Part shown: positions 5,617 to 63,273 of the stretch, one piece after another | Layout of the letters: each line of letters begins with the position of its first letter | How positions within the stretch are numbered: the stretch's first letter is position 1 | Assembly: GCA_030272155.1 (NCBI GenBank) | Contig: CP126198.1 | Coordinates: 3,658,001-3,722,000 of the forward strand | Source of the DNA: Tetradesmus obliquus | Taxonomy: Eukaryota; Chlorophyta; Chlorophyceae; Sphaeropleales; Scenedesmaceae | DNA length: 64,000 nucleotides | Direction: 5' to 3' | Program-made: the position numbers and the translations under genes | Notes under the pieces: model-generated | The model's input: the letters and a program-made list of their open reading frames with translations, nothing else | Database searches by the model: none | Told to the model about the DNA's origin: nothing

Positions 5617-8600
5617 ATGTCAGAGAAGGAGGCTCCCGTGAAGGCAGAGGAGCCCAAAGCAGCAAAGGAAGACAATGAGGCTCCAGCAGCAACAGTAGCT
5701 GCAAAGACGGCCGAGACAGACGCAGCACAGGTGGGCCTGGGCAGCCTTATCTTGAGGCTGCTGTCACTTTTCGTGGAAGCCAGTAGCAGGCTCGGCATGG
5801 CTGAAAGAATTCCGGTTTGTTTGATCGCAGGGCCAGGACGATGCATCCGATAAGCCACAGCCTCCCCCGCTGAGGTCAGGCTGGTCTCAGGTGGTGAAGG
5901 GTGGCAAGGTCGTCCCGGTCGAGGAGGCTGAAGCACAGCAGGCAGCTGCCAGCAAGGCAGAGGGTAGGGACAGGCATGAGTCGCACGGTAGAAGTCGCTC
6001 ATCGCACGGCTCATCGCGCCACCATGAACGCAGCAGCAGGGGCGAGGGCAGGGGCAGGGGCAGCAGTCATGCAGCAGGCTCAGACGGCCCCAACAGCAGC
6101 AACAGGTCCGGCAACAGCAGCAGAAACGAAGATAGAGCAGCTAAGGCCAGCAATGCAGCAGCTGCTGCTCAGGCTGACAAGGCTGCAGCACCCCGCAGCA
6201 CTGAGGAGGCTGGAGCTGAGGAGGGCACAAAAACGGCAGCTGCAAAGGTAAGCTGCATCACATGCATCTGCACACATGCTGTAAGGAAAATTTACCAGCT
6301 CTTTACAGTTCTCGGTGCTGCCTGCTGTAAACAGTTGCAGCCAGCACATGCTGCAGGAGGCGTGCAAGTCTGCAGCAGTGTGCGGACTGCCACTTGCAGG
6401 ACAGCAGCTCTGGCGGCGGCTGCTGTTGTAGTGCAGTTGTAGCCCGTTTGTAACATTCTCTTTGCATCATTGCTGCTTGCAGGAAGCACCAAAGGAGCCA
6501 CCAAAGCCCAGCAAGCCAGCTTGGAACAAGGTGTGCCCAGTCAGGCTTAGTGTCAGCATTAGCCACATGGAATATGCTGCAGCATCAACAAGCGCCTCCG
6601 AGCAGCTGCTGGATGCTATCGTACATGCAGCACTCACAACCTGCCTGGCGCGTGCAGCAAAGTAGCCTCTGGTGGCAGCTGCTGCCTTCTGTGTTGCGTG
6701 CATACTACTGCTACAGGCAACAGACCACATGGTATTGGTCTAGTGCGTTTGCATCATTTAACCAAATCACTTGGATAGGCTGCCTCCGGCCTACCGCAGC
6801 ATCGCTGCGTTTGGCATCTCGGCAGCTTTTGCACCAACAGCCCGCATCAGCTGCCCCTGTTGTGCATTGCTCACATTGCTTGCTGCTCTGCTGTACATCT
6901 GCCGTGCATCTGCTGTGCATTTCCTGCAGCCCGCCGCGCCAGCGCCAGCAGCAGCAGCAGCAGCAGCGCCTACCGCTGAGCCCCACACCACACACTGGCC
7001 CACCCTGGAACACGCCAAGGAGGCACCCAAGAAGAAGCCAGCAGCAGCTGGCAGCAGCAGCAGCGGCGGCGGCAAGGTGCGCTGCCGTTGTGTCTGTTAT
7101 GTTTCATAGCTGTGTTGTTTTGGTTGTATGCAACGGCGGATCCATGGATTGCTCAGCTTCTTGCAACGGACTGCTTGATGTCGACCACGGGTAAGCCATA
7201 CCTTTCGGCATTGCGGACTGCTTGTCCTGCAACTTTCCTACCCTTTTTCTGGTTGCCTATCCGTGCGGTGCACAGCCGTGTGCAGCACACTTAAGCTGGC
7301 TTACATTTCGCAGGGCTTTGCATGCAACTGCACCAGCCAGTGAAGTGGAAAGCCAGTGTGCACTGAGCTGCAGCTGCGTGTGTGTACAAGGCCCGTCATT
7401 ACAGTGTGCTGCGTGCACGCTGCCTGTGGCGCTCCTTTTCTTTGTGTTTGTGTGTTTTCCTTCAACAAATGCATCTTGGCGTACCACTTCCGCTGGCAAC
7501 ACTGCGCGTTCACTGCTGACCTCTCTGCGTGTCGGTGCTGCCTTTTGGTGCTGCTTCCTACGCTGCTGCTGTGCATCATGCAATTGCATTGCTTGAGCAG
7601 GAGGGAGGCTCCGTATCAGGGGGCAGCAAAGAGAGGAAGAAGGGCAACAAGGTGCATCTGGCGCAGATAAACCCAGAGCCATACAGCAGCAGCAAGGACA
7701 GGGAACGTGAACACCACGGCAGAGGAGGCGAGCACAGCCGCGGCAGTAAGCACGGCGAGCGCGGCGCTTACAGCAGCAGCAGCGCCAGCGCTGCCAACCA
7801 CGGCAGCAGCAGCAGCAGGTCTGGCGGCCGCAGCGGCGGCAGCGGCGCTGCAGCAGCAGCACCTGTGCCACCGGTGCGGTATGGTGTGAGTGAGCAGGCT
7901 GCCAAGTGGACCAGCGCTGCGGCTGTCACTGCTGCGGCTGCAGCAGCAACTGCTGCCACAGTTGGCGCTGCTGCAGCAGCAGCACCCGCGCCACCTGCCC
8001 CTGCAGCTTCTAGCAGCGCAGCAGCAGGCAGTGCCAGCGGCAGCAGCAGCCCTGCTGCCCCGGCCGCTGCTGCTGCTGCCAGCGGCAACGGCACTGCAGG
8101 TGCGCCATCCCCGCCTGCTGCTGCACCGCGTGCGCCACGCAGCGCAGACGGCCAAGATGGCCACACCTACGGCAGCAGGGGCGGCAGCGGCGGCTATAAC
8201 AGCAGCAGCAGCCGCGGCGCAGCAGACAAGGGTGGCCGCAGCGGCGGCCGTGGCAGCGGTCGCGGCAGCAGCAGCAATAGCTACGGCGGCCGTGGCGGCG
8301 GCGGCGGCCGCGGCGCAGGTGGTGGTGCTGCTGCTGTTCCTGCCGGCAGCGCGGCTGCGCACACTGGCGGCTATTACTTCCTTCCGAGCGGCCAGGTCAT
8401 GTTCTACCCGCCGCCTGCGGTGACGCCGAATGCGGTGTCACCCGATGCGCTGAAGGAGTCGGTGCGGCGCCAGATCGAGTACTACTTCAGCGGCGAGAAC
8501 CTCGGACGCGACTTTTTCCTGCGAGGCAAGATGGACAGCGAGGGCTGGATCAGCCTGGTGCTGATCGCAGGGTTTAACCGGGTGCGGATGTTAACACCTG

Positions 8601-9449
8601 ACATTGCGGTGATTCTCGAGAGCCTCGCAGACAGCAGCTTGGTTGAAGTGAAGCTTGAGGGGCTGCTGATCCGGGCGAAGGATAACCCGCTGCAATGGGT
8701 GCTGCCAGGTGCACCTGTGCACGGCGGCCAGCCTGCAGCAGCAGCAGCAGCAGCAGCAGAGGAGGGTGAGGGGGAGGGCGCAGCGACGGCTGCTGAGGTA
8801 GCAGCAGGAGAGGCAGAGGCTGCTGCGCCAGCGCCAGCAGCAGCAGCAGCAGCAGCAGCAGAGAGCGCAGAGCCTGCAGCAGCAGAAGACAAGCAGAGTG
8901 CTGACAACGGCCCAGCAGCAGATGAGCAGGCAGCACCTGCAGCAGCAGCAGCAGCAGCAGCAGCAGCGCCAGCACCTGATGCTGCTACGCCTCAGAAGGC
9001 AGCTAAGCCGGAGGGTGCTGAGCTGCCGTCTCCTGCCACTCCAGCCACCCCTGCAGTGTCTGCAGCACCTTCAGCTGCCATGGCGGCTGCGGCGGCGGCT
9101 GCAGCAGCATCAGCGGCGCCGCCTGCTGCTGCTGCTGCTGCCAAGCCTGTCAAGGGCAAGGCAGATGGTGATGATGAGGAGAGCAGCGACTTTGATGAGG
9201 AAGAGGAGGAGGACCTGTTTGAGATGGATGAGGACAGGGACAAGTGAGTGACTGTTATTTTGTTATGTTACATGTTACGTGATGAGCACGAGTTTGGAAG
9301 GTGTTAGCTGTGCAGTGCAGCGGCAGGAGTGGGACATATTTATGTGTGCAATTCTGCGGCTGACTGCTAAATGCAGTGCACTGCTTCTGGAAAAGTCGAG
9401 ACAATCATGCAGCACCTGCCCGGTGTTGCACACTCTGAGATGCCTGTGC

Positions 9450-9491
<42 letters not shown>

Positions 9492-11513
9492 AGGGCCGAC
9501 AAGGCGCACCCCGGCGACATGACTGACCGTGATGTGGACAAGCTGATTGTGGTGACCAGCGCCAAGAAGGGTGCCAAGCAGCCGCTGGACCAGCAGCTGA
9601 TCGATGATGGCCTCGCACTGTACCAGGAGCAGCTTAGCGAGGTGAGTTTATGTAAACAGCTAGCCTTGACCAGTCTTGAGCTTCTGGGGGATTATTGTGT
9701 GTCATGTTCATTATGGGTCGTGTTTGTACCAGCATCAGTTCATTAGTGACGGCCGGGTGCTGTACCAGGAGTAGCTGAGCGAGGTGAGTTGTGGGCCTTG
9801 GTGCTCGCATGAGGCTGTGGCGGGTGTTGGCTGCTTCATGGATGAGGTGTGTGCCAGCAGCAGCTGGTTGATGATGGCCGCTGGCTCTACCAGCAGCAGC
9901 TCAGCGAGGTAAGCCGAACAGTAGTCTTGACCATCACTGGGTGCGATGTGCATCATGTTCATGTTTGTGCCAGCAGCAGCTGGTTGCTGATGGCCGGGCG
10001 CTGTGCCAGAGCAGCTCAGCGAGGTGAGCCTTGAGGGCTGGTGAAGAAGCAGGCGGTGAAAGTGCAACTGACAGAACACGGCATAGGGATGTACAGAGTG
10101 CAGCTCAATTTGATTCCAGGAGTGCCTGAAATTCCTGGAATTGCATGGAACCTTGGGTCAGTAGCCATGGTAGCGACCGGCTCACATACTGCTGCACCTG
10201 CGCCCTTGCTGCCTCTGCTCACCACGCACACCCTCACTCCCGCAGAGCCGCGGCGGCAAGCGCGGCGGGCACCGCGGCAGCAGCGACCACCACGACAGCA
10301 AGTTTGAGCGCCACGGCGGCCTGCACCAGCAGCAGCAGCAGCAGCAGGGCCGGCCGCCGCGCGGGCCTGGCGGGCGCAGCCACGGCTTCTACGGCAGCAG
10401 CCTGGGCAAGAGCTACAGCAGGCCCGGCGGCGGCGGCTGGCGCTCCGGCAACCAGGTGCGGCGCTCGAACTTGTTGTTTCAGTGCAGTTGCTGGTGCATA
10501 GCATGCAGGCGATGATGGCGGATGAGTCGGACTGAGCTGTGAAAGAGCTGTTGGGGTACGAGTGAGCAGCCTAGTGATATGTGCGTTTGCGCCCAGGCTC
10601 ACCGCGGCCTTCCTTCGTGCAGCATGACCTCTGTAAGCCGCGGCTCAGCTTCATCGATCACACATAGCGCAGCAAACGGCATTCGCCATACGCCAAATTC
10701 CACCCTGTCACAAACCTGTCACTAACATGTCACTAACATCCTACTAACACACTCTGCCGCAGGGAGGCGGCGTGTTTGGCGGGAGCCCTCCCTCCCATCA
10801 CGTGGGCTGGCTCATTGGCGCCACACCCCCAGAGATGAACGGCCTGTACGGCACCGCTCACATGTTACCAACATAGTAGCTGATTTGTCATTGCTGCAGG
10901 GTGGCGGCGTGTTCGGCGAGAGCCCTCCCTCCCACCACGTGGGCTGGCTCATGGGCGCCACTCCCCCAGAGATGAACGGCCTGTACGGCACTTCCCCACT
11001 CTTCGGCTCAGCCGGCAGCGCTGCTGGCAGCGGCAAGCGCGCGAGCGGGCTTCTGGGCAGCAGCCCCAGGACAGGGTTTGGGGGCCCCGGCAGCCATGCA
11101 GGCAGCCATGCAGGGCCTGGCAGCAGCTTTGGCCTTGGCAGCAGCGCGCCCCTGGCCAAGTTCCAGCACCCGAGCCATGCGCTGCTGGAGAACCACGGCT
11201 TCAAGCAGATCGTGTACAAGAAGTACCACAAGCGCTGCCTGGAGGAGCGCGCACAGAAGGGTGAGCGGGGTTTAGGGTTTTTGCTTGGCCTGGCTGGGTT
11301 TTGGGGTCTGGTGAGCAGTTGGGGAAGTGTGTGATTGAAGCAGTTCGTGTACAGGAAGTACTACAAGCGCTGCCTGGAGCAGCGCACGCAAAGGAAGGGC
11401 AGTCGGGTTTTGCTGTCAGCTGGGTTGTAGCTGGGTTTCAGGTGGGTTGCGTAGTGCAGCATTGTGGTTGTGAGCCGGTGCTATTTTCTGTATGAGTTAT
11501 TGCTAACCTCCTC

Positions 11514-11547
<34 letters not shown>

Positions 11548-12286
11548 ATCCACTACACGCCAACAGGCATCGGCCAGAGCGAGGAGATGAACACGCTGTT
11601 CCGCTTCTGGTGCTACTTCCTGCGCGATAACTTCAACGACAGGATGTACAACGACTTCAAAAAGTACGCGGACGAGGACGCAGCGGCAGAGTACATGTAC
11701 GGCATGGAGTGCCTGTTCAGGTTCTACAGCTACGGCCTGGAGAAGAACTTCAGGGCGCCGCTGTACAAGGTGCGCAGCTGCTCGTCACATGCCTGCATGT
11801 ATGTTGGTGTGTAGTTGTGGGTGCCTGTTCAGGTTCAACAGCATGGCCTGAGAAGAACTTCCGCGCACCCGCTGTACAAGGTGCGCAGTGTTTTGTGCCA
11901 ACTGTGTGTGCTGTGCAGCGTATAACGCATGCTGTGATTGCTTTTGCGCTTGTTTGCTCGTTGAGCTAATGTGATGCTGGGGCTGTGATGAATGCTTGGG
12001 CACCCCTTCTGAAGGTGCGCTGAATTGCGACATGCATTCGTTGGTGGCTGGCTGGCTGGTTGGTTGGTTGGTTGGTGTGGGGTTCCCTCGGTGTAGCTGA
12101 CCATGTGGCGTGTGCTTGGGCTTGTCAAATATGCCGTCACACGTATCTACTTACTTGTTGTATGAACTGTCCTGCACTCTCATACCGCTCTTCTTCAGGA
12201 CTTTGCGGCGCTTGTGCTGAAGGACCACCAGAACAATGGCACCTGTACGGCCTGCAGAATTTGTGGGCCTTCGCCACTGACACAAA

Positions 12287-12331
<45 letters not shown>

Positions 12332-13389
12332 GCCGCCGCCGCCTAATATCTACTTTGTGCAGGACTTTGAGGCGCTGGTGCTCAAGGACTACCAGAACTA
12401 TGGCAGCCTGTACGGCCTTGAGAAGTTCTGGGCCTTCCACCACTACAGCGGCCTGCCTGCAGACGGCAGCGTGGAGGTGTGCCCTGTGCTGAAAGGGCTG
12501 CTGGAAGGCCCCTTCAAGAACCTGGACTGCTTCAGGGAGGAGCAGCAGCGGAGGCGCGCAGCACTTGAGGTACGGCCCGTGTATTATCTGCACTGAATGC
12601 ATCTTGGGGGATATAGCCCAAGGTTGGCATTGGTTTTGGTGCGTTTGCTCTGGCCGACTGTGGGTGCCCGGTGCTGGAGGGGCCCTTCAAGAACCTGGAC
12701 TGCTTCAGGGAGGAGCAGCAGCGGAGGCGCACGGCGCTCGAGGTGCGGGGCATTGCATTCTTGACCCGTGTGAAGTGTTGATGCACTTTGCTTGATTGTT
12801 GTTGAAGGTTCGGGTTGTTGGTCCGCATGGGGGATGCTTGGTAAGCAGGAGAAGGCGTGGAGGGAGTGACTTTTCCCTGTCTGCGAATGGGAGGATGCAG
12901 ACACCTGATTCAGCGCGCGGGTCACAATATCTGCATCGCCTGTATGTTTAGTCTTGGGGTTGGTTGGGCTGTGCCGTTTGCTATCGCCAGCGCAGTTGCC
13001 AACTCGCTGTCATCAGCAAGCACAGCGGGCTACTCACTGATCCGCTTGTCACTGTGTTCACAGTTGCTGAGTCTGTTTGCTTGTCTGCGGTTCTGCTGCT
13101 GCAGGCTGCGGCAGCCGAGAAGAAGCAGGCTCACAAGCAGCAGCACGGCCACGGGCACGGCCACGGCCACCCGCAGCAGCACCACAGGCAGCCGCACCAT
13201 CCGCAGCAGCATCAGCCAGACAGGCAGCAGCAGCAGCACGGGCAGCAGCCAGCAGCCGACCAGCAGCAGCACAGCAAGCAGCCGGCCGAGCAGCAGCAAG
13301 CGAAGCAGCCGCACAGCTCGACGAATGGCTTAGCAGCAGCAGCAGCAGCGCCTGCAGTAGCTGCGGAGGCTGGCGTTGCTGCCAGCTGA
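5617..13389 (+). CDS. LARP1: La-related protein 1 (LARP1)
   Basis: Eleven exons give 1260 aa with all phases closing. LARP1 is a cytoplasmic RNA-binding protein. Its C-terminal DM15 region binds the mRNA cap and the adjacent TOP motif, and it controls stability and translation of ribosomal-protein mRNAs under TOR. Seen here: short Trp motifs near the N-terminus (SGWSQVV at about 55, PAWNK about 190, THWPTLEH about 215); a long Ala/Gly/Ser/Arg-rich linker; a La motif at about 526-612 ([19 protein letters not shown]); an acidic patch before the exon 5/6 junction ([16 protein letters not shown]); and three DM15 helical repeats at about 996-1165 ([52 protein letters not shown]). The tail is His/Gln/Ala-rich with HGHGHGHGH. 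No RRM is evident behind the La motif, as in the LARP1 family. The start is the first ATG of the open exon (MSEKEAPVK). Several introns carry decayed exon-edge copies. Confidence 0.95.
9454..9491 (+). promoter_or_regulatory. (CTG)n tract abutting the LARP1 exon 6 acceptor
   Basis: About a dozen CTG units run directly into the CAG acceptor at 9491-9493. Similar tracts precede LARP1 exon 9 (11516-11548) and exon 10 (12286-12331). They take the place of the polypyrimidine tract. Confidence 0.7.
9730..10023 (+). repeat. Three decayed tandem copies of the LARP1 exon 6 3' edge
   Basis: The last 50-odd bases of exon 6 plus its donor recur at 9730-9783, 9856-9908 and 9969-10023. Donor spacing from the real site at 9641 is 142, 125 and 115 bp. 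Translated, each resembles the exon end [17 protein letters not shown] with substitutions. Each ends in GAG followed by GTGAG or GTAAG. Confidence 0.9.
10763..10855 (+). repeat. Copy of the LARP1 exon 8 5' edge with acceptor
   Basis: About 93 bp match the first 93 bp of exon 8 (real start 10900), including a CCGCAG acceptor. The offset is 137 bp. It reads as [19 protein letters not shown] against the exon's [19 protein letters not shown]. Confidence 0.92.
11337..11398 (+). repeat. Copy of the LARP1 exon 8 3' edge
   Basis: Resembles the exon 8 end [19 protein letters not shown], as [19 protein letters not shown]. The donor is lost. Confidence 0.88.
11820..11880 (+). repeat. Copy of the LARP1 exon 9 3' edge with donor
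   Basis: Matches the exon end coding [19 protein letters not shown] and keeps the donor GTGCGCAG. It lies 111 bp beyond the real donor. Confidence 0.9.
12047..12078 (+). repeat. (GGCT/GGTT)n microsatellite in LARP1 intron 9
   Basis: Three GGCT units are followed by about five GGTT units. This is a simple tetranucleotide repeat. Confidence 0.85.
12199..12273 (+). repeat. Copy of the LARP1 exon 10 5' edge with acceptor
   Basis: About 75 bp match the start of exon 10 (real start 12363), including a TTCAG acceptor. A long CTG tract (12286-12331) lies between the copy and the real exon. Confidence 0.9.
12664..12742 (+). repeat. Copy of the LARP1 exon 10 3' edge with donor
   Basis: Matches the coding end [20 protein letters not shown] and keeps GAG followed by GTGCGG. 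It lies 173 bp past the real donor at 12569. Confidence 0.92.
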
Positions 13390-25480: not shown

Positions 25481-26439
25481 AACAGTAGTCAGCGGCCGGT
25501 CGACAGCGATTGACCTTGGTCACGTGGTATGTTTCATCCAGTGAGGGTTTTTGCAGTCCGCTGGCTCTTCCTCAGCTTTGCAGTTCTGTGCGCAACATGT
25601 TACTTTGTTGACAGAGGTTTTACAGTCAGTCGTCAAGGCAGGCAGGCCTTGTAAATAAGTTGCAACCATGTTCACAGTTGAGCCGCATAGGTTTGATGTC
25701 TCAAACCCTCGTGTTTTGAGGGAGGCAAAACGCCTCATGCAGCATACGTCAGCACTGATGTTGGTGATGCCTGCTTGTTTTAGTTTGTCGGATTGGGCAC
25801 CGCTGGGGACCTCTGACACATCCACCCGATTGTTGGTGCCAGTTGGTGCAGTTTGGTGCAGCGTGCTGCTTGCCATTTGTAACAGGACGGCTGGCATTTT
25901 AAAAGCTCGACTTCTTAATTTATTTTTTGTTACCAAGCGGGACGAAATCCTAACGATTTCTTATGTACTGCAGGTGATAGTCACGTACTGCAACTAGTAG
26001 ATGCAACTAGTCAATTGACTGGAGCGTCAGATGGCCTATGTGGCATGTGCTTACTGCTGAGCATCCTTGGACTGGGTCACCCAGCAAGCACATGTGTACA
26101 GCTTTCGTTCGAATACCCTTGCTGATCAAGCCATAGATACTGTTTGCAACAATAAGCAGCCACTCACGGGGGATGCTGGCCAGCTGTAAAATGACAGCGT
26201 TACTGTGCTATAGCCAGAGAGGCCATGGTACGGATCAGGCCTGCCATTGAACGCTGCAGTGCCGGGTAGTGCTGTCGAGTTTGTGGTCTTGATGCCATCA
26301 TCATCATCACCCATCAAGCCATGGCATCAAAAAAAGCCATAGCATCAACGCCATCTTGATGCCATGAATCAGTTATAAGTTACTGTCACTAGTTTCAGCC
26401 GCACTGAACCCACAAACTGCGCATGATCACACATCAATT

Positions 26440-26730
26440 TGGCCCAGCAGACTGCTGCTTCTGCAGCCGCCGCAGCAGGTTGCAGGCTGCATTGGTGTTG
26501 GCAGCTGCCACAGGGTCAGCAGCAGCTGGGGCAGCCGGCGCTACTGCACCCGCAGGCGCCACCGCACCCAAAGGGGCCACTGCACCCACAGGCGACAGCG
26601 GCGCTGAGTGCACCTGCAGCGGCGGCTGTTGCCGCTGCTGCTGCTGCAGCTGCTGAGGGGGTAGTTGTGCAGGCACACTGCCACCCTTAGACGCACCTGA
26701 TGGCGGCGGCAGCACCAGCAGCAGTGACAT
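26440..26730 (-). repeat. Probable decayed copy of part of XRN1 exon 24
   Basis: On the minus strand this encodes a Pro/Ala/Gln-rich stretch ending NLLRRLQKQQSAG. XRN1 exon 24 has the similar [12 protein letters not shown] near 28430. It lies beyond the XRN1 stop at 26965. Low complexity makes the match uncertain. Confidence 0.4.
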
Positions 26731-26947
26731 CAGCAGGTGGTACAGTGCAAGACAATCACAGGTTCTGTTATCAGCAAGGATACCACTGCCGCAGCGCCAT
26801 CACAACACGGCGCATGCCACTGCTGCTGTTCGCTGCACGCATTTTTCTGTTTGCAGACTCCGCGGCACCTCCTCAAGCACAGCACAACAAAAACAAGACA
26901 TCATCATGGCTACACGTGACGGCCCTGGTACATCATGCACATCTAGT

Positions 26948-26952
26948 TTACA
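26948..26952 (-). terminator. TGTAA motif 13 nt past the XRN1 stop
   Basis: TTACA on the plus strand is TGTAA for XRN1. It is very close to the stop codon, so the real signal may be further on; I found no other clear one within 500 bp. Confidence 0.25.
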
Positions 26953-26964
26953 TCAAACATCAGA

Positions 26965-27976: not shown

Positions 27977-28017
<41 letters not shown>

Positions 28018-30397: not shown

Positions 30398-30433
<36 letters not shown>

Positions 30434-35317: not shown

Positions 35318-35351
<34 letters not shown>

Positions 35352-37610: not shown

Positions 37611-37645
<35 letters not shown>

Positions 37646-40299: not shown

Positions 40300-40335
<36 letters not shown>

Positions 40336-53200: not shown

Positions 53201-53452
53201 GCCAGCGCAGACCAGCATGTGTGATCTTGAATCTGACACTCTCCCTGCTGCGGTTGTGTTGTGGGTGCAGGTGCGATGGGCCTTCCTGTGAGTGGCTTCC
53301 CAAACATGAATGCAGTGTCACTAGAGGACGCCACAGGCCAGAACTACATCGACACGGTAGACTTCCTGAAGGTTGGAGTGCTGGGCAGCATAATGGCATA
53401 CGCCATCATCATCAGCATAGGTTATGTGCTGATGCTGGCAGTTGGGTTCTAG
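47208..53452 (+). CDS. PTC1: SPX-SLC13 phosphate transporter (PTC1/Pho91-like)
   Basis: Ten exons give 762 aa with all phases closing. Residues 1-215 are an SPX domain, the inositol-pyrophosphate sensor: MKFTHTLKYNSVPEWRESYI, NYSLLKKLI, and the basic helix FRKILKKHDKLVS. The rest is an SLC13-type (DASS) permease: a first membrane segment (LLVAFALAVFAFLLTYPIF), GGFAIAAALSKHF, ISNVAAPVLCFSLVQPIL, the signature SNLGGMTSPISSPQNIFAI, a second half with TTFISHTVGAMVILPIVQS, and SGFPNMNAVSLED. This order is that of yeast Pho87/Pho90/Pho91 and of chlorophyte PTC1, which move phosphate at the plasma membrane or out of the vacuole/acidocalcisome. The membrane used here cannot be told from sequence. Introns around exons 2, 3, 5, 6, 8 and 9 carry exon-edge copies. 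Confidence 0.93.
48383..48413 (+). repeat. Copy of the SPX exon 2 3' edge with donor
   Basis: The end coding ILKKHDKLVS with GTGAG recurs 133 bp past the real donor at 48280. Confidence 0.92.
48835..48960 (+). repeat. Two copies of the SPX exon 3 5' edge, exact 92-bp period
   Basis: Acceptors end at 48840, 48932 and 49024 (real), spaced 92 and 92 bp. Each is followed by a version of the start coding HPMSSNYLPI. The intron part of the unit is also repeated. Confidence 0.93.
50228..50712 (+). repeat. Three copies of the SLC13 exon 5 3' edge
   Basis: The part coding IPLFVTSMLVPFLIVALRVL to the end TMFSQ recurs at 50228-50370 (nearly intact, donor after 50370), 50484-50617 (more changed) and 50650-50707 (fragment). 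Offsets from the real donor are 262 and 247 bp. Confidence 0.93.
51370..51405 (+). repeat. Copy of the SLC13 exon 6 3' edge
   Basis: Matches the end coding VYKPGQNIKE as VYKPGQHIR, about 112 bp past the real donor. Confidence 0.88.
52161..52229 (+). repeat. Copy of the SLC13 exon 8 3' edge with donor
   Basis: Matches the end coding MGGLALGEAVQSSGLLATIS as MGGLALVKAVQSSGLLATIS, followed by GTGAGC. Offset is 145 bp. Confidence 0.93.
52464..52660 (+). repeat. Two copies of the SLC13 exon 9 5' edge, exact 135-bp period
   Basis: Acceptors end at 52463, 52598 and 52733 (real), spaced 135 and 135 bp. Each is followed by sequence for the start LISTLVGGQSLWAVLAIFC with changes. The intron part of the unit is repeated too. 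A 14-bp fragment of the exon 9 3' edge recurs at 53008-53021. Confidence 0.93.
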
Positions 53453-54059
53453 AGCTGGCAGCGGCCGTACAGCTTCATAACTGTCATTTTACAGCATGGT
53501 TTGGAGGGGTTCAAGTTGGTGTGGTGGGTTGCAGCGCCCACCGGCAGTACCTATCATGGATCGCACCTCTTCTGATGCATTCACAGCAATTTGGGGCACT
53601 TGTCAGTGGTGGCGCAGGTTTTGGTCGTGGCAGTTGCTGTCGCACCTCAAGGGTTGACTGTGGGGGCATCAGCAGCAGAGTGCATGCAGCAGGTCCTGCT
53701 GGCATTGGTTGAAGCAGCAGCACTGCTGCACAGAGTGCTCCAGGCCAGCTGCAGCAGCTGGTGGCAGCCACATGACACGGCTGGCGTATGCGTATGTGTG
53801 GAATCTGAGGCACAGGGCTACTGGTCAACGTTTGATTCAGCGTAACTGTTACGCCGGTCAAGCTGCATGGCGGGCCTGCCAACATCTGGGCTTGACAAGC
53901 AAGGATGACACACCACTCTGTTAGCAGCATCAGTGGCACAGAACATACATTTGTGTCGTTTCAGGTGCAAAGATTCATGCCTGCGTGCTGTCTTAACTTC
54001 AGTACACTACATGCGTAAGCATGCTGCGCGCTGAGCAAGCTGGTTCGTTGAAGAGCACG
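53453..54059. other. Intergenic region between SPX-SLC13 and SPAG1
   Basis: 607 bp hold the transporter 3' UTR and the SPAG1 promoter. I found no clear TGTAA and no gene. Confidence 0.5.
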
Positions 54060-57000
54060 ATGGATTTCGACAGTTGGACGTGAGTGCTCCAGAAACATAA
54101 TTCAACTAGGCCTGTGCCACAGCTCGGCAACAGATGAATCGAACTAAAGTGTCATCTTATCCCTGGCGTGCAGAGGAGACACCTTAGCCTGCTGTGAGGA
54201 CCGTGATACACTGGTCAAGGCAGCTAAATACTTTAGGTGCGCCTGAGCTAGAGACATGAGCGATCTAGCCCTGGACTGCCATTGTGTCTGCATCGACACT
54301 TGATGAGGCTGCTTGAATGCTTCGATCTGCAGGGAACAAGGCTTTCACCCAACAGCAGAAGCTATTGACTCACGTCTGAACGAGTTGGGCGTAGTCAAGG
54401 CAGCCAGCCCACCAGCAGTAGAGCTGGACACTGCTGAGGCAAAGAGGAGCATCCTCAGCTTCCAGGTGCGTGTTTACATCACTACTACGCACATATTCAA
54501 CGTAGTATCGTGTTCAATGGTCCTGATGCGATCCTCGTTGTCCCATGCAGGAGGAGTCTAAAAAGCTGCTGCAGCAGCAGCGCGACAGGCTGACCGAGGC
54601 CAGGTGCGCATCACTCATAGCACACTACTGCTGCAGCCCCTTCAGTTGCAGGAGCTTGCATGTTTGCTTCATATGTGCTGCATGTCCTGCTGCATAGTGC
54701 TTTGCTCAGTACAGTATGTTGCCTCTGTGCTCAAACACGTCTTGCCTTTGCAGGCAGCAAGGCATGCAGGCTGAGCTGCATCCGCCAGTGAGAGGTGCAA
54801 TCAACGGAAAGAAAGCCAACCTGGGCAGTGCCAAGGTAAGGAGGCATTGGATAGCGAGCCCAGCAGGCTGTGCGTGCGCAATTTGTGTAAGTACACGCTA
54901 ACAAGACAGTAAGGCACAGCAGTTTGCCATGCTGATGTGCATGTGGTTGCTCCGGCAACAGCACGCCTTGCATGCTCACCAGATTGGGCCCTGCATGAGG
55001 TATAGAAAGTTGCCGTGTATGGGTTGTGTGCTTCACCACATCGCGTTCGTGCCTGCGTTCTCACTGCTGCTAATGCTTTGTCACCCTTCCTGCCTTGCAG
55101 GACACCAACAGCCAAGCAGCAGCAGCCGCACCGCGCCAGTCCTTAGACTTGTCAGATCAGAAGGACCAGCAGCTGCTTGGCTTAGGTGGCCTGAAAGTAC
55201 CCAGCAGCGGCACAGCACCCAAGGCAGCAGCTGGCAGGCCTGCAGCAGCAGCAGCAGCAGCTGCTGCCGCCTTGGGCTTGGAAGACGAGCAGCAGGCTAA
55301 GCCGTTGATACAGGAGGTGCTGCTGACTGGTGCTAAGCGCACGCAGCAGCTGGTGCAGCAGAACATGCAGCTGCCGGCGGCTGACAGGCGGGCCATGGCA
55401 GCCAGCAAGCGCGCCAGCGGCAACGATCACTTCAGGTGGGCCTGCCGCCAGGCTGAGCCAGGCGTTTGATTGATGATTGATTGGGATCACTGCACTTGCT
55501 TCAGCAGCTGATGCTTGCAGCAGGCAATGCGCCTCCACTGAGCAGAGTTCGCGTCGTGTGCAACGCTGTCAGCTTCAGCTCAGAACAGTCCAGGCACAGC
55601 TTGGTGCCTGGTGAGCCGCTGACACACTGTTTTTGGCAACTGCTGGCACTTGTTTCCTGCAGGGCTGGTGCATATGCTGATGCTGTGGAGGAGTACACGC
55701 TGTCATAGGCAACTGCTATGGCACAGTGTGTCACCTGCACATATCTGTCTGCTGGCAATGCTTTCCTGCAGGGCTGGCGCGTATGCTGATGCTGTGGAGG
55801 AGTACACCCTGTCTGTCAGCCTGGACCCTGCAGCGGTGCCTGTGTACACCAACAGGGCAGCAGCGTACCTCAAGCTCAAGGAGTGGCAGGCTGCTGCTGC
55901 TGACTGCGACATGGCGCTGACGCTGCTTGAGGGCGAGACAGGTGAGCGGGGGGTTGCGGTGCTGCTGAGAAACGGTGTTCATCAAGGGGTGTTGCGGCAA
56001 GGGTGGCCTGGATAATATGGCTATGTGCGCTTGCTGCATTCAACGCACGGTCGTGCAGTGCCTGTGTGTGCATGCTGAATTTATGTCATTGCTCTGATTC
56101 TGCTTGTAGATGTGCAACTTTGCATGTGTCCTCACATGCTGATGCTGTGCCTCTGTCGTGCTTGCTTCTACATGCAGGTGACAAGGATAAGCTGGATGAC
56201 CTGCGCTCCAAGGCGTGCCTGCGCAGGGCGGAGGCACTGGCAGCAATGGGCAACAACCAAGCGGCTCTTGAGGTGAGTTCGGGTGCAATGTGGCAGCCAG
56301 CATGTCTTTGGCTGTGCACCGCAGCAGCTTGAGCCAGTAAATAGCTGCTTGCATGTGTGTATTGACTCTTCATCTCTATTGTTCGCTGCTTTATCGTTTG
56401 CTGTGTGAAGTGCAAGGGAGTACAAAGGAAAGCAGGTGCCTGACTCTGGCCAGGAACCCGCCATGTGCAGCTCCTGCATGGCGTTTGCAGCTGCTTCAAT
56501 GGGTTTGGCATTGCTGTGCTGTTGCTTAGCTCATCTCGGCTGTCAACCTTCCTACTGGCCATGCAATGTGGTGACTTCTGCGCATGTCAGCATGTTTCAA
56601 CTCTCTCTGCACTACCTGCGCCTGGGTGGTCTGCTTGCAGGACTGGAAGGCAGTGCTTCAGCTGTACCCTGATGAGCCAAAGGCAAAACAGGGCGTAGAG
56701 GCAGCTGAGAAAGCCCTGGGCATTAGCAGCAGCAGCAGCACAGCAACTCAGCCAGGCATGCGGCGCATAGCCGTTCAAGAAGCAGACAGCAGTGATGAGG
56801 ATGACGATGATGAGGAGCAGGCAGCAGCGATGGCACCAGCAGCGCCGACAGAGCCACAGCAACAGCAGCAGGAGCAACTGCTTGAGCAGCAGCAGCAGCA
56901 GCGGCAAGCAGCTACATTGACCGGCACAGCTGGGGTAGCAAGCAGCAGCACAGATGCAGCAGCTGAGGCAGCTGCACCTGACCCGGCTGCAACTGCTGCA

Positions 57001-59016
57001 GCGAGTCCAGCAGCGGCTGCTGCTGCTGAGCAGTCAGCTGCAGAGCCAGCAGCAGGTGACGCTGCCACTGATAACGATGTAGCAGCAGCTCCTGAGCAAC
57101 CTGGCTTTGATGCAGCGGACATGGCTGCCAGGATCAAAGCAGCAGCGGAGGCTCATGCTGCAGCAGAGGCCGACGACAACAGCAGCAGCAGCGGCAGCGA
57201 CTCTGACTCAGCGTCAGAAGACGATGCAGACGATGACCTGGCAGCAGCAGCGGGTGGCTTTTCAATGGATGCTGATGTGGCTGATTCCTTGGCTGGGTCA
57301 GCAGTGGAGCTGCCACCCTCTTATGAGCAGCAGCTGGACCAGCTGAGGGAAGCTGGCAACGCCAAATTCAGGACAGGTGGGTGCTTGACATGATGCAGTT
57401 GCTCTGTTTTAATTCTTGTTTGTGGCAGCGGTATGATGGTGTGATGGCAGCAGCATGCAGGAGGCCTGCCTGCATCTGCCCCCATTGCAGCTGCTTTGAA
57501 TGCCGCTTGCGCTGACACAGCTTGCAGTTTCAGGCTTCATGCTCTGAAAGCTGCTTGCGCATGCCGACGTTGCACACGTGTGTTCAAGCCTCTGACGCAT
57601 CAAATTGCTGCTCCTGCAAGCCTCCACGTTATACACAATGATGTACGCATGCTGCTGTGTTTTGTGTTGTCTGCAGGCGCATACGCTGATGCAATCAACC
57701 TGTACGAGCAGGCGCTGTCACATGCGCCAAGCGACGTACGGCTGTACAACAACTGCGCCATCGCCAAGCTGTACCTTGAAAAGTGAGCAGTGCTATGCTG
57801 TTTTTGCTTGCATGCGCTGCATGGCCTCATGCCTGCCCGGTTTGCTTCTTCTGCATGCATGAATGCCGAGCAAGCAGCATAGGTCATCAAAGGTATAAAA
57901 TGCACGCGTGTAGTTGCACCTGTCACCGGCATGCACGCACATACAACAAGAACCTGTCGCTTTGGTTAGAATGCTTGTGCATGTCGATTATTGCCGCACT
58001 TACTGATGCTGCAGGTTTGATGCGGCGCACCAAGACGCAACGCTGGCCATTGTGGTGGACGCCACCCCACCCCATCTTCGCTGTTACTTGCATGCTTGCG
58101 CACACCAACAACCTGTAACCTCGGCTTTGTTGATGTGCTGAACTGTCGCCGCAGGTATGATGCTGCGCACAAGGACGCCACGCTTGCCATTGCACTGGAC
58201 CCCACCAACAGCAAGGCCTACCACAGGCGGCACAAGGCCAAGATAGGGCTCAAGGACTACATGGTGAGCATAGTCTGCGCTTGCAGGACAGTTGTCGCAG
58301 CGGCATGTCTCATGTTGCTGTTTTATTCTGCCAAGTTAGGGCTCGAGGACTACATGATATGTGCACACAGCGCTTGCAGGACAGCAGTTCTAACAGCATG
58401 CCTACAATATCTTTGCTCGGTGTTCGCAGGGCGCCTGCAGCAACACTGCCACAGGTGTTTGTGCCTCTGTGCTGGGACTGATAGTCCATGGTGGTTTTCA
58501 GCGCCCTGCCGCTGCTGCCGTAGCTGTGTCAATGAACGGTCGGTGTTTGCTGTTGCAGGGTGCCATGCTGGACTTGCAGCAGTGCATGCAGCACGCCGCA
58601 GCCAAGGAGCGCAAGGCCTTGCAGGAAGAGTTGAATGCACTGCAGGAGCAGATGGATGCTGAGATAGCAGAGGCTGAGACAGCAGCAGAGGCTGCACGTG
58701 CTGCCAGCGCAGCAACATACAACAGCTGCACCATTGAGGAGGTTACTGAGGAGCCCATGGAGGCGTTTCAGGTGTGCATGCGCTTGCGGTGTTCCGCGTT
58801 GTATATCTCACTTTGTCAGTGACATATTTATTGGTAACAGCTGTACAGGGTGCTGCAGGTGCAGCAGCACCACAAACCTGTGCATATTGCAATGCACAAA
58901 TAGTCATGTGTATGCCCCTAGTTGACTTAGAATGGTGGTTTGCGGGTTAGACGTTCTGCGTTGCTGCACTTCGACCAGTTCTCCATTGGTGGTATACGAC
59001 ATCCTAACTCGTGCCA

Positions 59017-59052
<36 letters not shown>

Positions 59053-60235
59053 GCTGCTGTGCAGCGCAAGTATGATGAGCTGCAGGGCAAAGAGCAGGGG
59101 TTTGCCAGGATGGCAAAACGCATGCAGGACACAGCAGCTCAGCTGCGAGAGGAGTGGGAGCAGGGGCGGCAGCAGGAGCAGGAGCGCGATCAGCACAGGA
59201 TCCAGCAGCTGCAACAGCAGCGCCAGCGCCAGCAGCAGGAGCGGGAGAGGCTTGCAGCAGTGCAAGCAGAGGCAGCAGCCAGAAGAGCAGCCAGGGCAGC
59301 GCGGCGGAAACTGAAAGCAGACAAGGCTGCTGCTGCTGCTGATGCGGCGGCTGCTAGCAGCGGCAGCAGCAGCAGCGCAGCAGTCGACATCCTCAGCAGG
59401 CGCTCTGGTCACGCAGCAGCAGCAGCAGCAGCAGCTAAAAGCAGGGTAGCAGCAGAGCCGGTGACTCCACCTGCATCTCCATACAACGGCCAGCTGCTGC
59501 ACAATGCCGCAACTGCCAAGGCTGCACGCGAGGCAGCAGCAGCCAGCAAAGCAGCAGCCAGGGCAGATGCCGCTTCAGCAGCAGCAGCTGCTGCGCGCAG
59601 CAGCGCTGCTGAAACCACGCCGGTAGCCAGTCCTGCTGACGCTCCAACGCCTGCTGGCACTCCTGCAGGCTCCTACAAAGCCACCAGCACACTGCTGCAG
59701 CAGCAGCAGCGGCGTCAGCAGCAGCAGCAGCACAGCCGTGCACCGCCGACGGCAGCAGAGGTACAACAGTCACTGGAGCAGCGCGTGGAATCGCTGAAGC
59801 AGCAGGGTAATGCGGCCCTGAAAGCAGGGCAGCTTGCAGAAGCTGAGGCAGCATACATGGAGGCTCTGCAGCTGGATGGGGACAATGTGAAGGTGCTGCT
59901 GAATCTGGCGCAGCTGCGGCTTGCGCAGAAGGATGGGGCGGGTGCTGTGCGGGCGGCAGAGGAGGTGCTGGCGCTGCCTGGCGTTGAGGAGGACTCTCGG
60001 CGCAAGGCCACACTCAGGTGAGTGGTGCTGTGTGGTACAGTGCAAGAGGTTTGGTTGGCTGGTGATACAGTGCGGATGAGCATGGTGAAAGCATGTTGCA
60101 TGACTGCACATGTGTATGCGAAGGCTGTGGGTGCAGGAAGGCAGAAGGACAAGTACAGCCAGCAGCAGACATGTCTTTTGTTGCTGCACATGTTACTGAG
60201 GGCAGCTGCGTTTGATCAGCCAGTATGTGCTGACG

Positions 60236-60272
<37 letters not shown>

Positions 60273-63200
60273 TTGCAGGCTTGGCCTCGGACTGGAGTTG
60301 AAGGGCGACGTTGAGACAGCTATGTGGCACGTGTCACAGCTGTACAACGAGTACATCCAAAACAGCCAGCCTGTGCCTGAGCAGCTGAAGAGAGACATGG
60401 AGCGCATTGCCACAGCGCTGCAGCAGCTGCGGCACCCCGGGCTAGCACCAGCAGAGGAGCGGGATGCAGACAGCACTGCTGCTGGCAGCAGCTCACAGCC
60501 GCATGCTGACCAGCAGCATCCAGCAGCTGCTGAGCTGGCTGCAGCGCCTCCAGCAGCAGCAGCAGCAGTAGCAACGTCTGTGCCTGCGTTCACAGGCATG
60601 CGCAGCAGCATCCCTGTCAAGTTTGAAAGTGACAGCGAGGAGGAGAGTGAGGAGGATGCAGCACAGCCACAGCAGCAGCAAGCCAGCAGCAGCACCCCAG
60701 GCAGCACTGATGCTGCAGCAGCGGCAGCAGCAGCAGGTGACAGCATGCAGCCTGCAGGGGCAGCAAGCAGGAGTGGCCTCGCAAAGATAGCAGTAGTTTG
60801 TGAGACCTCCAGTGAGGAGGAAGAGGATGTGTCAGTGCAGGAACCCAGTGTGTCGTCAGCCAGTGAAACAGCAGCAGCAGCAGCAGCAGACAGTGTCACA
60901 GCTCCTCCCTCTGAGGCAGCTACAAACGCCACTGTTGCTGCTGCGGAGCCAGCAGCAGTAGCAGCAGCAGCAGTAGATGATCCTGCATTGCAAGCAGACA
61001 GTTTTGTCAGTAGCATGAATGTGGCAGCAGCCGAACAGCAGCCTTTCGGTGCTACCCTGCACCAGCGCTCCCGCAGTGCTGGTGACGAGGATGTAACACG
61101 CGCCAGCGATGACGCTGCAGGCCAGGCACTTGCACGGCTGATGGAGGCCAACAACATGAGCAGGGCCCAGCAGCAGGTCGTTCGCGGCAGCAATGCTAGC
61201 AGCAGCGACAGTGACAGCAGCAGCAGCAGCGAGGTCTACGCAGTTGACTATGGCAAGGAAGTAGAGCGAGTAGCTCAGTTAGCCAACATCCAGCGGATGC
61301 AGAAGGCGGCGCAGCTGATGCAGGAGCAGCAGCGGCAGCAGGGGCGCAAGCAGAGCTGGGAGTCTGTGCGGCAGCAGTGGTGGCAGCGGCTGCAGCAGGA
61401 GCACCCGCAGGCCTATGCAGAGATCGACAACATCCGGCAGGCTGAAACAGCAATCCTGAGTGAGCTGCTGAGCCCCCTCACCAAAGGCAGCAGCAGCAGC
61501 GGTGTAGAGACCAAGTTTGCTGAGGTAATCTACAAGCGCGATGACAAGGCAGCAGCAGCACGTGAAGCTGGCGAGCGCGCCCTAAAGCAGGGCAACGCGC
61601 AGTCAGCACTGAAACACTACAACGCTGCTGTCGCCAAGCAGCCGACTGACCCACGCGGCTATGCTGGCCGCGCACAAGTCTGGCTGCGGCTGAAGCGGCC
61701 GCAGCATGCGGAGCAGGACTGTGGGCTGGCGCTGCTGCTGGCCACATGCCCGAAGGCTGTAGCGCCGGGCTTAGTGCTGGGGCAGAAGGCAGGCCAGGAG
61801 TCTGCTGCTGTTGATGGCGCGCTGCTGGGGCGGGTGCGGCGGGCGCGTGCGATGGCGTGGAGGGAGATGGGCAAGCTGAAGGAAGCTGTTGCGGTGAGTG
61901 GGGTCAAAATGGTCCTGCTGTTAGTGCTTTGGTTGTAGCGGATTTCTTGGGTCTATCTCGTGTGCAATGGCGTGGAGGGAGATGGGCAAGCTGAATGAGG
62001 CTGTGGCGGTGAGTAGGGTTGAATATGATGGTCCTGCTGTTTGTGCTGTGGTCGTAGCAGTATGGTTGTGGATTGTTACAATGTATGTGGCACCTGCAGC
62101 GCGTGTTGGTTTGTGGATTTCCTGTGATGGATGCCGTCTGCAGCAGCTGCCAGCAGCCTTGCCATGTGGGCTTCTGGGTCTCTGCTTTTGCACTTGAGCT
62201 TGCACAAACCGTGCACACGCTTAGTTAAGCAGCTTTACCACACAAAGCAGCAGCAGACCGACACGAACATGGAGTTGTTGTGTGTTGTTTGCTTGCAGGA
62301 TTTGAAGCAGCTGCTGGCAGACAGCCCTGGTGACGCCAGCTTGCAGAGGCTGGTGGCTGACCTCACGCAGGCATATGCCAAGCAGGTGCAGCAGGCAGTG
62401 CACGCAGCGCAGCAGCAGGACAAGCCAAAGGCGGCTGACTTCAACTTCGATGAGGTTGCAGAGGAGCAGCAAGCCCAGGCCGCCACTCCTACAGCAGCAG
62501 CATCAGCGCCAGCTGAACCAGCAGCAGCAGCAGCAGCAGCAGAGGAGCCTGTCAGCCATGTGCAGCGCCACAGGATTGTCATTGAGGAGACAGATGGCAG
62601 CGGGTCAGAGACTGACGAGGAATATGCGCGCTTTGCGCCAGCAGCAGTGCAGCAGCAGCAGGCTCCACAGCAAGGGAGCAGCAGCACCAACCAGCAGCAG
62701 GATGCAGCTGCAGGAAGCGCGGGGGCAGCAGCAGCAGCTGGGCAGCAGCCCGCAGGGAGCAAGGCTGCCCCACCAGCAGCAGCTCAAGCTGGTGCAGTGG
62801 CTGCGGGGCCAGCTGCCGCTGTGCCAGCTGCTGCTGCTGCCGCTGCTGCCAGTGAGCGGCTGACTCAGCAGCTCATGGCAAAGCAGCCGAGCCCTCCCAA
62901 AACAGCAACAGAGTTCATCGCTGCTGCAAAGCTGCTGTCAGCAAAGGGCAGCAGCGGCGGCGGCAGCAGCCAGGCGCTGGGGCAGTATGTGCGGCAGCTG
63001 GATCCTGCAAAGTACAAGGCGGTGTTTAAGCGGGAGCTCAGTGAGGGCCTTATTAGGTGGCTGGTGCAGGGGCTGCAGGCGCTAGTGGGTCAGGAGCCGC
63101 AGTTTGTTGCGGCAGCGCTGCTGCAGCTGAGCCAGGTGGAGAGGTTCAGCATGGTGCTGCCGATGGCTGCTGCCAACAAAGGCACGAAGGCAGCGCTGCA

Positions 63201-63273
63201 GGCACTGCTGGACGCGCTGGCTGCTGCTGGGCAGGACATGGCGCCATTGAGGGCAGTGTACAAGCTGCGGTGA
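54060..63273 (+). CDS. SPAG1: SPAG1-like dynein axonemal assembly factor
   Basis: Fifteen exons give 1885 aa, phases closing. SPAG1 (DNAAF13) is a cytoplasmic co-chaperone that helps HSP90/HSP70 and R2TP preassemble axonemal dyneins. Seen: an N-terminal REQGFHPTAEAIDSRL helix; TPR block 1 at about 222-350 (AGAYADAVEEYTLSVSLDP, NRAAAYLKL, KACLRRAEAL); TPR block 2 at about 548-650 (REAGNAKFRTGAYADAINLY, CAIAKLYLEK, KAYHRRHKAK), both with N and K/R residues of an HSP-binding carboxylate clamp; a coiled coil at about 720-800 (Arg/Gln-rich); TPR block 3 at about 940-1060 (QQGNAALKAGQLAEAEAAYM); a fourth at about 1447-1560 (ALKQGNAQSALKHYNAAVAK); and an RPAP3_C domain at about 1762-1878 (LGQYVRQLDPAKYKAVFK, LLQLSQVERFSMVL). 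Ala/Gln-rich linkers make it about twice animal SPAG1 length. RPAP3 is the alternative, but several spaced TPR blocks favour SPAG1. Confidence 0.85.
55663..55705 (+). repeat. Copy of the SPAG1 exon 7 5' edge with acceptor
   Basis: Matches the start coding AGAYADAVEEYTLS with acceptor CCTGCAG, 109 bp before the real one. The intron part is also repeated. Confidence 0.93.
58015..58074 (+). repeat. Copy of the SPAG1 exon 11 5' edge with acceptor
   Basis: Matches the start coding YDAAHKDATLAIALDPT with changes, 140 bp before the real acceptor. A 26-bp copy of the exon 11 3' edge (GLKDYM context) lies at 58333-58358, so both edges of one exon are duplicated. Confidence 0.9.
58333..58358 (+). repeat. 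Copy of the SPAG1 exon 11 3' edge
   Basis: Reads GLEDYM against the exon's GLKDYM. The donor has decayed. Confidence 0.8.
59019..59061 (+). promoter_or_regulatory. (CTG)n tract before the SPAG1 exon 13 acceptor
   Basis: About eleven CTG units and CTTGCTGCTGT lead into the acceptor at 59064. A similar tract (60237-60270) precedes exon 14, whose acceptor ends at 60278. Confidence 0.7.
61966..62008 (+). repeat. Copy of the SPAG1 exon 14 3' edge with donor
   Basis: The end coding AMAWREMGKLKEAVA recurs as AMAWREMGKLNEAVA followed by GTGAGT, 115 bp past the real donor. Confidence 0.93.

Follow-up and report, generated by a model that had tools for sequence, protein, structure and literature searches.

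Direct copies of exon edges recur, mostly in tandem, in the introns of Tetradesmus obliquus genes

In the parts of the published accounts drawn on here, tandem duplication across an exon boundary is already known from single cases. The potato RdRp gene carries a tandem genomic duplication across an intron-exon boundary (PMC4974935), in which a single event produced a new intron and an extra piece of exon. Intron gain from duplicated exon segments bearing AGGT is reviewed in PMC3443670, which cites Hellsten 2011 and Gao & Lynch 2009. Small tandem duplications also arise from the fill-in of 3' overhangs by CST/Pol alpha-primase (PMC8355091), and in some eukaryotes intron sequence is mass-produced by introner elements (PMC9860276).

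The duplications described here resemble the potato event, as PMC4974935 describes it, in that a direct duplication over the 3' end of an intron and the 5' start of an exon inherits the parental splice signals; unlike that event, they occur repeatedly, by extrapolation at hundreds of edges, and existing introns lengthen while the coding sequence is apparently unchanged. As in the AGGT-type gain outlined in PMC3443670, small intragenic tandem duplications provide duplicate splice sites, but in contrast to the Rogers model the unit contains an existing junction and makes no new intron; in our gene models, which contain no new intron, the copies lie inside existing predicted introns. Fill-in by CST/Pol alpha-primase is an analogy only, as a source of short direct tandem duplications, and the parts of PMC8355091 used here give it no known exon-edge bias or step of ~125 bp. 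Unlike introner elements (PMC9860276), the 63 spacers between copies that were compared with 314 kb of the genome yielded no dispersed element family. We did not find the recurrent form of junction-spanning duplication in the open-access literature searched, and, on the parts of these accounts drawn on here, recurrence at many edges is what sets these duplications apart.

The DNA compared comprised the window, by which we mean the whole 64-kb stretch analysed, and five further stretches of this genome, each of 50 kb, 314 kb in total. Gene models were home-made (a gene finder, training with fixed costs), with Pfam or PDB checks on several of them. Of 517 predicted exons, the 64 that the rule applied here classed as edge copies were dropped before counting; the count took in 397 of 409 introns and 701 edges, leaving out exons below 60 nt and introns above 3000. 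Of 155 edge pairs, 149 remained once three stop-codon edges, two regions of repetitive genes and the near-duplicates had been taken out. Strongly shifted copies were left out of the analyses of splice sites (GT/AG), of in-frame stops and ratios, and of homology ends and spacers. The copies found in the window are as follows.

5617..13389, + strand: LARP1-like gene (gene finder), 14 predicted exons, some of them copies; 7 listed copies; shortened protein matches Pfam La (1.2e-20) and LARP1_HEAT (2.1e-57)
9733..10023, +: the 3'-terminal ~51 nt of the exon that ends at 9641, copied three times together with the donor; copies end at 9783, 9908 and 10023; identities.75,.82,.84
10763..10854, +: copy of the 5'-terminal 92 nt, acceptor included, of the exon that starts at 10900; identity.93, offset 137
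11337..11397, +: copy of the 3'-terminal 61 nt of the exon that ends at 11260; identity.87
11822..11880, +: copy of the 3'-terminal 59 nt of the exon that ends at 11769, together with the donor GTGCGCAG; identity.92
12672..12742, +: copy of the 3'-terminal 71 nt, donor included, of the exon that ends at 12569; identity.92
17383..17738, +: 'lipase' gene (the earlier note's label; Pfam gave no family), in which the exon that ends at 17312 is copied twice on its donor side (copies end at 17410 and 17502) and the exon that starts at 17819 once on its acceptor side (17687-17738)
26434..44295, - strand: XRN1 5'-3' exoribonuclease gene, 22/44 scored edges copied; matches PDB 3pie (1.2e-165; copies removed from the query beforehand) and XRN_N
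36013..37262, -: array A, in which the 3'-terminal ~155 nt of exon 37337-37592 and the donor are copied five times at a ~230-bp step (alignment)
41321..41943, -: array B, in which the 3'-terminal ~95-113 nt of exon 42087-42348 and the donor are copied three times at a ~255-bp step (alignment)
42414..42746, -: the 5'-terminal 50-64 nt of exon 42087-42348, copied three times together with the acceptor
43338..43394, -: copy of the 5'-terminal 57 nt of exon 43070-43247 plus the acceptor; the intron part of the unit has decayed but can still be recognised (z 3.2)
42855..42920, -: copy of the 3'-terminal 66 nt of exon 43070-43247; identity.85
41094..41153, -: copy of the 5'-terminal 60 nt of exon 40859-40992 plus the acceptor; identity.97
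40606..40767, -: the 3'-terminal 40 nt of exon 40859-40992, copied twice together with the donor; identities.93,.97
38860..38889, -: copy of the 5'-terminal 30 nt of exon 38723-38803 plus the acceptor; identity.97; intron flank unrelated
33445..33754, -: the 3'-terminal 62-65 nt of exon ~33936-34195, copied three times; predicted exon end probably a few nt off
29345-29486, 29877-29926, 30709-30773, 30987-31056, 32202-32297, 32524-32634, -: further XRN1 copies
33114-33194, 34300-34363, 34841-34930, 35774-35821, -: further XRN1 copies
37666-37712, 38304-38337, 40057-40082, -: further XRN1 copies
30477-30504, -: doubtful, CAG-rich XRN1 copy
47208..55435, +: SPX-SLC13 transporter gene, 9 listed copies at 6 edges; Pfam SPX (1.1e-34), Na_sulph_symp (5.2e-25); fused with the next gene by the gene finder
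48841..48962, +: the exon that starts at 49025, copied twice on its acceptor side at a 92-bp step
50227..50617, +: the exon that ends at 50108, copied twice on its donor side
52464..52654, +: the exon that starts at 52734, copied twice on its acceptor side at a 135-bp step
55500..63473, +: SPAG1-like gene (TPR, RPAP3_C; Pfam); copies 55663-55704, 58330-58356, 61959-62008

As an earlier note on this DNA had claimed, copies of exon edges lie in the introns of five of the six window genes; the table behind these lines holds none for the gene at 45206-46812. The note's count by eye, about 65 copies at about 41 edges, was right about the existence of the copies and is higher than the 53 copies at 37 edges in our table (LARP1 7 copies at 5 edges, 'lipase' 3 at 2, XRN1 32 at 22, SPX-SLC13 9 at 6, SPAG1-like 2 at 2), which is a minimum: it lacks two further copies belonging to the array at 41321-41943 and the one at 61959-62008. 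The spacings quoted in the note, 92+92 before 49025, 135+135 before 52734, ~255 at 41312-42199 and ~230 at 36010-37485, all hold.

Edge copying is genome-wide and not peculiar to the window. In the window, 39 of 129 exon edges had been copied in direct orientation into the intron next to them; in the other five stretches the count was 59 of 572, and 16 of 36 genes were affected. The window stands above the genome average mainly because of XRN1 (22/44 edges, against 17/85 in its other genes). Overall, 98 of 701 edges were copied, on the donor (52/350) and acceptor (46/351) sides alike, whereas inverted and shuffled controls each gave 0/701. With start and stop edges kept in, copies occurred at 5/44 stops and 1/44 starts against 89/818 splice edges; exclusion of repetitive genes left 3 stops and 0 starts. 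Self-BLAST of the window with simple repeats masked returned 90 direct and 0 inverted pairs up to 2.5 kb apart; a looser search (up to 1.5 kb) returned 101 and 3, against 1 and 1 in a dinucleotide-preserving shuffle, and near pairs across the 314 kb numbered 272 direct and 14 inverted (1 and 1 when shuffled).

The proposal that exon interiors are not copied alone is nearly right, since exon middles scored in 9/298 and far edges in 3/486; 8 of these 12 rows also had an edge match, and the other four (window 11769-12257, C2 47853, C9 487 right side, C9 26844) did not. This scarcity follows from the geometry of a tandem unit and is hence no evidence for neutrality. The reading of the copies as junction-spanning duplications and not retrocopies is borne out by their direct orientation, the splice site that they carry and their partly intronic sequence; a retrocopy would lack introns and join one exon to the next. 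Stretches straddling the exon-intron border have been duplicated in direct, mostly tandem fashion, repeatedly at the same edges, with a step between successive copies of about 125 bp (median 125, quartiles 112-146, n=149) and arrays of up to five or six units. Introns with copies are longer than those without (median 456 vs 258), in agreement with the suggestion of intron growth, and GT or AG is kept in 134/149 copies, so that spare splice sites exist at the level of the sequence.

Comparison by codon position gives insight into the constraint on the copies. Differences between exon and copy fell at the three positions as 145:139:299 in 70 non-XRN1 arrays and as 49:28:135 in XRN1, with nonsynonymous/synonymous ratios of.31 and.26, where a simple neutral-copy model gives.5. 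In 38 arrays, those of XRN1 included, changes private to a copy were distributed as 63:61:91 outside XRN1 (79 synonymous, 124 nonsynonymous, 10 stop) and 19:8:21 within it (14, 30 and 2), whereas changes private to the exon were distributed as 2:7:32 and 3:0:6. In-frame stops occur in 12 of 95 ungapped non-XRN1 copies. From the near-even private changes and the stops we conclude that the copies evolve almost without coding constraint, while the exons stay under purifying selection; outside XRN1 the copies are not exactly neutral (79/213 synonymous,.26 expected, p.0004). The units left the exon at different times, and older units retain older synonymous states of it. The suggestion that the copies are spliced out and nearly neutral is thus supported, but it is insufficient as a full account.

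The exon-derived part of a unit outlasts its intron-derived part. Between two intronic copies, mean identity is.86 for the former and.65 for the latter (52 pairs), and 22 shared BLAST alignments have mismatches of.125 against.218 and gaps of 16 against 48. Full units, intron included, still align in some arrays, as at C4 38379 (six times) and before window position 52734 (intron part identity.89, z 14.7), and local alignment detects intron-part homology in 16/32 and 25/35 pairs against.15 in controls; a whole-unit match (spacer <15) is seen in 9/89 nearest copies. In 85 nearest pairs, intron-part homology at z>3 is found in 15, 44, 65 and 63% from the oldest to the youngest bin. About 45% of copies of every age have homology ending at the splice site or within 7 nt of it, and simulated plain tandem duplication gives such ends in 0-4% of young copies. 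Within arrays the nearest copy is the most similar in 18 of 35 and a farther one strictly more similar in 17.

Several explanations can be weighed against these data. Were tandem duplication neutral and equally frequent everywhere, junction-spanning units would survive because they are spliced out, with neither bias nor refreshing; the codon positions and stops, the full-unit homology of many arrays, the equality of donor and acceptor sides, and the shrinkage of exon overlap with depth, as random units would show, all fit. Simulation of 1200 such events, however, gave 404 edge and 233 intron-only pairs, whereas at periods of 80-180 we see 72 and 7, intron-only arrays of ~125-bp period being scarce, and the imbalance persists in the PDB-aligned part of XRN1 (11 vs 1, p.034) and likewise in four other Pfam-matched genes (23 vs 2, p.0013); seeing a copy requires an exon match, an ascertainment that the simulations mimic only in part. 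The same simulation retained intron-part homology at z>3 in.98,.92,.83 and.46 of pairs from young to old (.63,.65,.44 and.15 seen) and GT/AG in.75 overall (.90 seen). Raising the indel rate 2.5- and 5-fold brought intron identity nearer to the observed values, but still produced intron-only pairs in nearly the same number as usable edge pairs (148:164 and 101:106). We therefore consider unbiased duplication unlikely. Less probable still is that the copies serve as translated pieces of exon, used alternatively or in mutual exclusion, and are subject to selection. Their well-kept splice sites and the 64 of 517 exons called from them speak for it, as does the synonymous excess in XRN1 (49:28:135, and array A by eye), which hinted at coding selection on the XRN1 copies; the private changes, near neutral in XRN1 too, did not bear this out. 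The stops oppose it as well, and a second splice site at the inner border is not above background: acceptors are not enriched in donor-side copies (.33 vs.32 in random intron), nor donors in acceptor-side copies (.15 vs.20), and PDB homologues of XRN1, aligned to a query from which the copies had been taken out beforehand, cover the segments once, with no insert.

Insertion of an introner-like mobile element, flanked by long target-site duplications that coincide by chance with exon edges, would account for the many pairs with a non-matching spacer of 60-90 nt between two good matches. Comparison of 63 spacers with the 314 kb of genome found no dispersed family, only 23 short far matches from 5 spacers, scattered and probably of CAG-type low complexity, and many spacers share partial homology with the neighbouring unit's intron part; this origin is very improbable. 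As for a minisatellite, whose unit would spread whatever its function, arrays of up to 5-6 units are present, yet few with a period of ~125 bp consist of intron alone. An assembly or haplotype artefact is hardly credible, given the evolution-like codon-position patterns and stops in private changes, copies that are 75-100% identical, and their presence in all six stretches sampled with up to five or six per array.

Besides neutrality, the ~125-bp offset, the scarcity of intron-only duplications and the persistence of the exon part call for edge-biased duplication or refreshing, and we think it probable that border-spanning duplication, near-neutral spliced-out copies and one of these additions together explain the data. 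Going by gene structure, the unit joined to the exon body would stay functional while the remaining units sit in the intron and are spliced out, and repeated rounds would lengthen the intron. Less certainly, the initiating break or template switch may favour coding edges. Alternatively, in short-tract gene conversion the slowly evolving exon may occasionally overwrite its intronic copies, so that exon part and splice site would stay identifiable well after the unit's intron part had been lost; a test for conversion tracts by the clustering of differences (an ungapped comparison, partly confounded by indels) did not separate exon parts from an equally clustered intron control, and only 6 of 84 triples in array trees were discordant as conversion expects. 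A more specific and tentative possibility is a process confined to coding edges, which places a copy of 25-90 exonic nt plus the splice site at a constant intronic offset of ~125 bp, is distinct from short-period (<80 bp) intron duplications, and may be coupled to transcription, splicing or RNA-templated repair. If this were so, a tenth of exon edges would be supplied with decaying spare splice sites, and a real edge bias would imply a repair or RNA-coupled mechanism of a kind not described in the open-access literature searched.

Intron lengthening without transposons is poorly known, and about one in ten exon edges here carries a datable self-copy, which offers a rate, a clock based on codon positions, and material for testing whether duplicated splice sites are used. 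The 64 called exons that were such copies by our rule are also a warning for gene annotation.

Genes were predicted with a purpose-written gene finder trained on the window and on positions 2,000,001-2,050,000 of C1-C4 (four 50-kb blocks), with C9:2,000,001-2,050,000 added after training. It returned 44 genes and 517 exons in these six stretches, a splice consensus after training of AG/GTGAG (donor) and TGCAG/G (acceptor), and 409 introns of mean length 378. The genome comprises 104.66 Mb in 17 contigs. The window (C8:3658001-3722000) has a G+C content of.572, and four of the five blocks lie at.560-.580; Table 1 of PMC5966456 gives 108 Mb, 57% G+C, a mean intron of 462 and 7.8 introns per gene for T. 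obliquus, the longest mean intron among five green algae (others 230-302). The predicted protein of XRN1, the exoribonuclease gene at window 26434..44295 (minus strand), matches PDB 3pie (1.2e-165), and XRN_N matches indicate other XRN-family genes on G000 C1, C11 and C12. Pfam families were matched by window genes (La with LARP1_HEAT; SPX with sulphate/citrate symporter; TPR with RPAP3_C) and by four genes of the other blocks (E1 dehydrogenase; epimerase; peptidase S49; aspartokinase-type kinase with ACT domains); in the window, 'lipase' and gene 45206-46812 matched no Pfam family. Sixty-four of the 517 predicted exons fell inside edge copies and were dropped by a rule retaining the exon attached to the longer body.

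The outer 60 nt of the exon are copied in the adjoining intron at 98 of 701 exon edges in the six stretches (score at least 20), while inverted and shuffled tests at this score each gave 0/701; lowering the threshold to 18 admitted one inverted match. In the same test the far edge of the exon was copied in 3/486 cases and the exon middle in 9/298, so the earlier claim that edges rather than interiors are copied holds for the bulk of cases, with middles not wholly spared. In the five blocks, the first 60 nt of the exon are covered in 57/475 cases, positions 40-100 in only 13/366 and positions 90-150 in 3/229. Donor (52/350) and acceptor (46/351) edges are both copied. Copied edges occur in every stretch (window 39/129, C1 11/108, C2 9/117, C3 12/93, C4 5/127, C9 22/127), and the frequency depends strongly on the gene (chi-square 131, 42 df, reached in 0/5000 simulations), XRN1 leading with 22 of its 44 edges. 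Introns with copies have a median length of 456 nt, against 258 nt without. Copies make up 12% of intron length, assuming 125 bp per listed copy. Array spans account for 10.9% of intron length across the five blocks; for XRN1 the figure is 53.6%.

The offset from edge to nearest copy lies within 70-185 in 73 of 89 cases (mean 124, SD 22), with a minor group at about 215-262, chiefly in XRN1; successive copies follow at a median step of 125 (quartiles 112-146). Only one of the 89 edge copies has a period below 80, as against 9 of 21 intron-only pairs lacking exon-like parts; another 7 of the 21 lie at 80-180. Intergenic self-copies are few (38/2400 windows, 23 of them from one block).

Differences between exon and copy, with changes common to several copies scored once, fall 145:139:299 by codon position in 70 non-XRN1 arrays (271 synonymous, 300 other) and 49:28:135 in XRN1 (117 synonymous, 88 other). 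On these counts alone the XRN1 copies looked to be under selection. A cleaner test is restricted to arrays with at least two copies and counts a change only where a single copy carries it. Outside XRN1 such changes number 63:61:91 by codon position, with 79 synonymous, 124 nonsynonymous and 10 stop changes (opportunity.26/.71/.03), a small synonymous surplus (p.0004); in XRN1 they number 19:8:21, with 14, 30 and 2, which is near-unconstrained, and selection on the XRN1 copies was rejected. Exon-private changes fall 2:7:32 outside XRN1 and 3:0:6 within it. The copy-private counts therefore show that intronic copies are close to unconstrained, with the small surplus outside XRN1. The XRN1 pattern fits copies that departed from the exon at different times and retain its older synonymous states.

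The earlier note had proposed that junction-spanning duplications are nearly neutral, and the almost free decay of the copies supports this in part; plain neutrality leaves unexplained an excess of edges, well-kept exon parts, homology that stops close to the splice site and retained GT/AG. Between intronic copies, identity is.86 in the exon-derived part and.65 in the intron-derived part (52 pairs), and mismatches in 22 shared alignments are.125 versus.218. Ungapped identity by splice site is.83-.99 across the last 20 exon positions, apart from a few lower donor-side values (minimum.73 at position -21), and.94-.95 at GT/AG; by donor position +6 it has dropped to roughly.5. Even among the youngest copies, 45% (14/31) show homology that stops at most 7 nt from the splice site. 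GT/AG is retained in 134/149 copies. We simulated 1200 unbiased duplications with neutral decay, using detection identical to that for the real data:

Simulated and observed properties of duplicated pairs
Usable edge pairs to intron-only pairs: simulated 404:233; observed 72:7
Intron-part homology, young to old pairs: simulated.98-.46; observed.63-.15
Homology ending at splice site: simulated 0-38%; observed 41-52%
GT/AG kept: simulated.75; observed.90

Raising simulated indel rates 2.5-fold or 5-fold brought intron identity nearer the data and left the edge excess unexplained among the rows listed. The excess is also present in the structure-aligned part of XRN1 (11 vs 1, p.034; 16 vs 1, p.005, with periods to 270) and in four Pfam-matched genes (23 vs 2, p.0013).

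Taken together, our data show that duplication spanning exon edges is recurrent and that the copies then decay nearly freely. The edge excess could arise if duplication events start at coding edges, or the exon could refresh the exon-derived part of its copies. Refreshing is supported by a farther copy resembling the exon more than a nearer one does in 17/35 arrays; C3 47293, with 64 identical nt despite flanks of the two units that by eye are clearly diverged, and C9 42022 are examples. Against it count a tract-clustering test with equal signal in intron controls, and tree discordance in the expected direction in only 6/84 triples. We argue that splicing itself is not needed for edge copying, because stop-codon ends are copied too (5/44; 3 after excluding repetitive genes). 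Coding starts, in contrast to stops and splice sites, are seldom copied in the six stretches (1/44, in a repetitive gene).

Our searches of an open-access library listed no description of mass copying of exon edges. Related reports describe one boundary-spanning duplication that produced a new intron in potato (PMC4974935), tandem duplication handled as intron gain (the review PMC3443670) and a repair pathway yielding short tandem duplications (PMC8355091).

At C9 42241 (block coordinate) the exon donor is GTTTGT, and two intronic copies, GTGAGA and GTGATA, are closer to consensus. CAG/GCT trinucleotide runs, polyglutamine or polyalanine tracts, abound in introns and exons throughout the window (e.g. 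8735-8967, 27968-28016, 40301-40334) and frequently adjoin edge copies. In C4, a coding minisatellite at 2049071-2049927 (block 49071-49927) comprises about 10 tandem copies of 69 bp, up to 97% identical, in a predicted exon, and a young 45-bp tandem array lies in predicted intergenic DNA (block 42481-42691). Short predicted genes at window 857-2328 (minus strand) and 22796-24264 (plus strand) encode almost identical proteins (MEMAEVLLRQRAES... GLLRNIIWRKQ..GYSRLVDSSSQDQDKKTQ); the pair forms a dispersed repeat in inverted orientation and may represent a mobile element.
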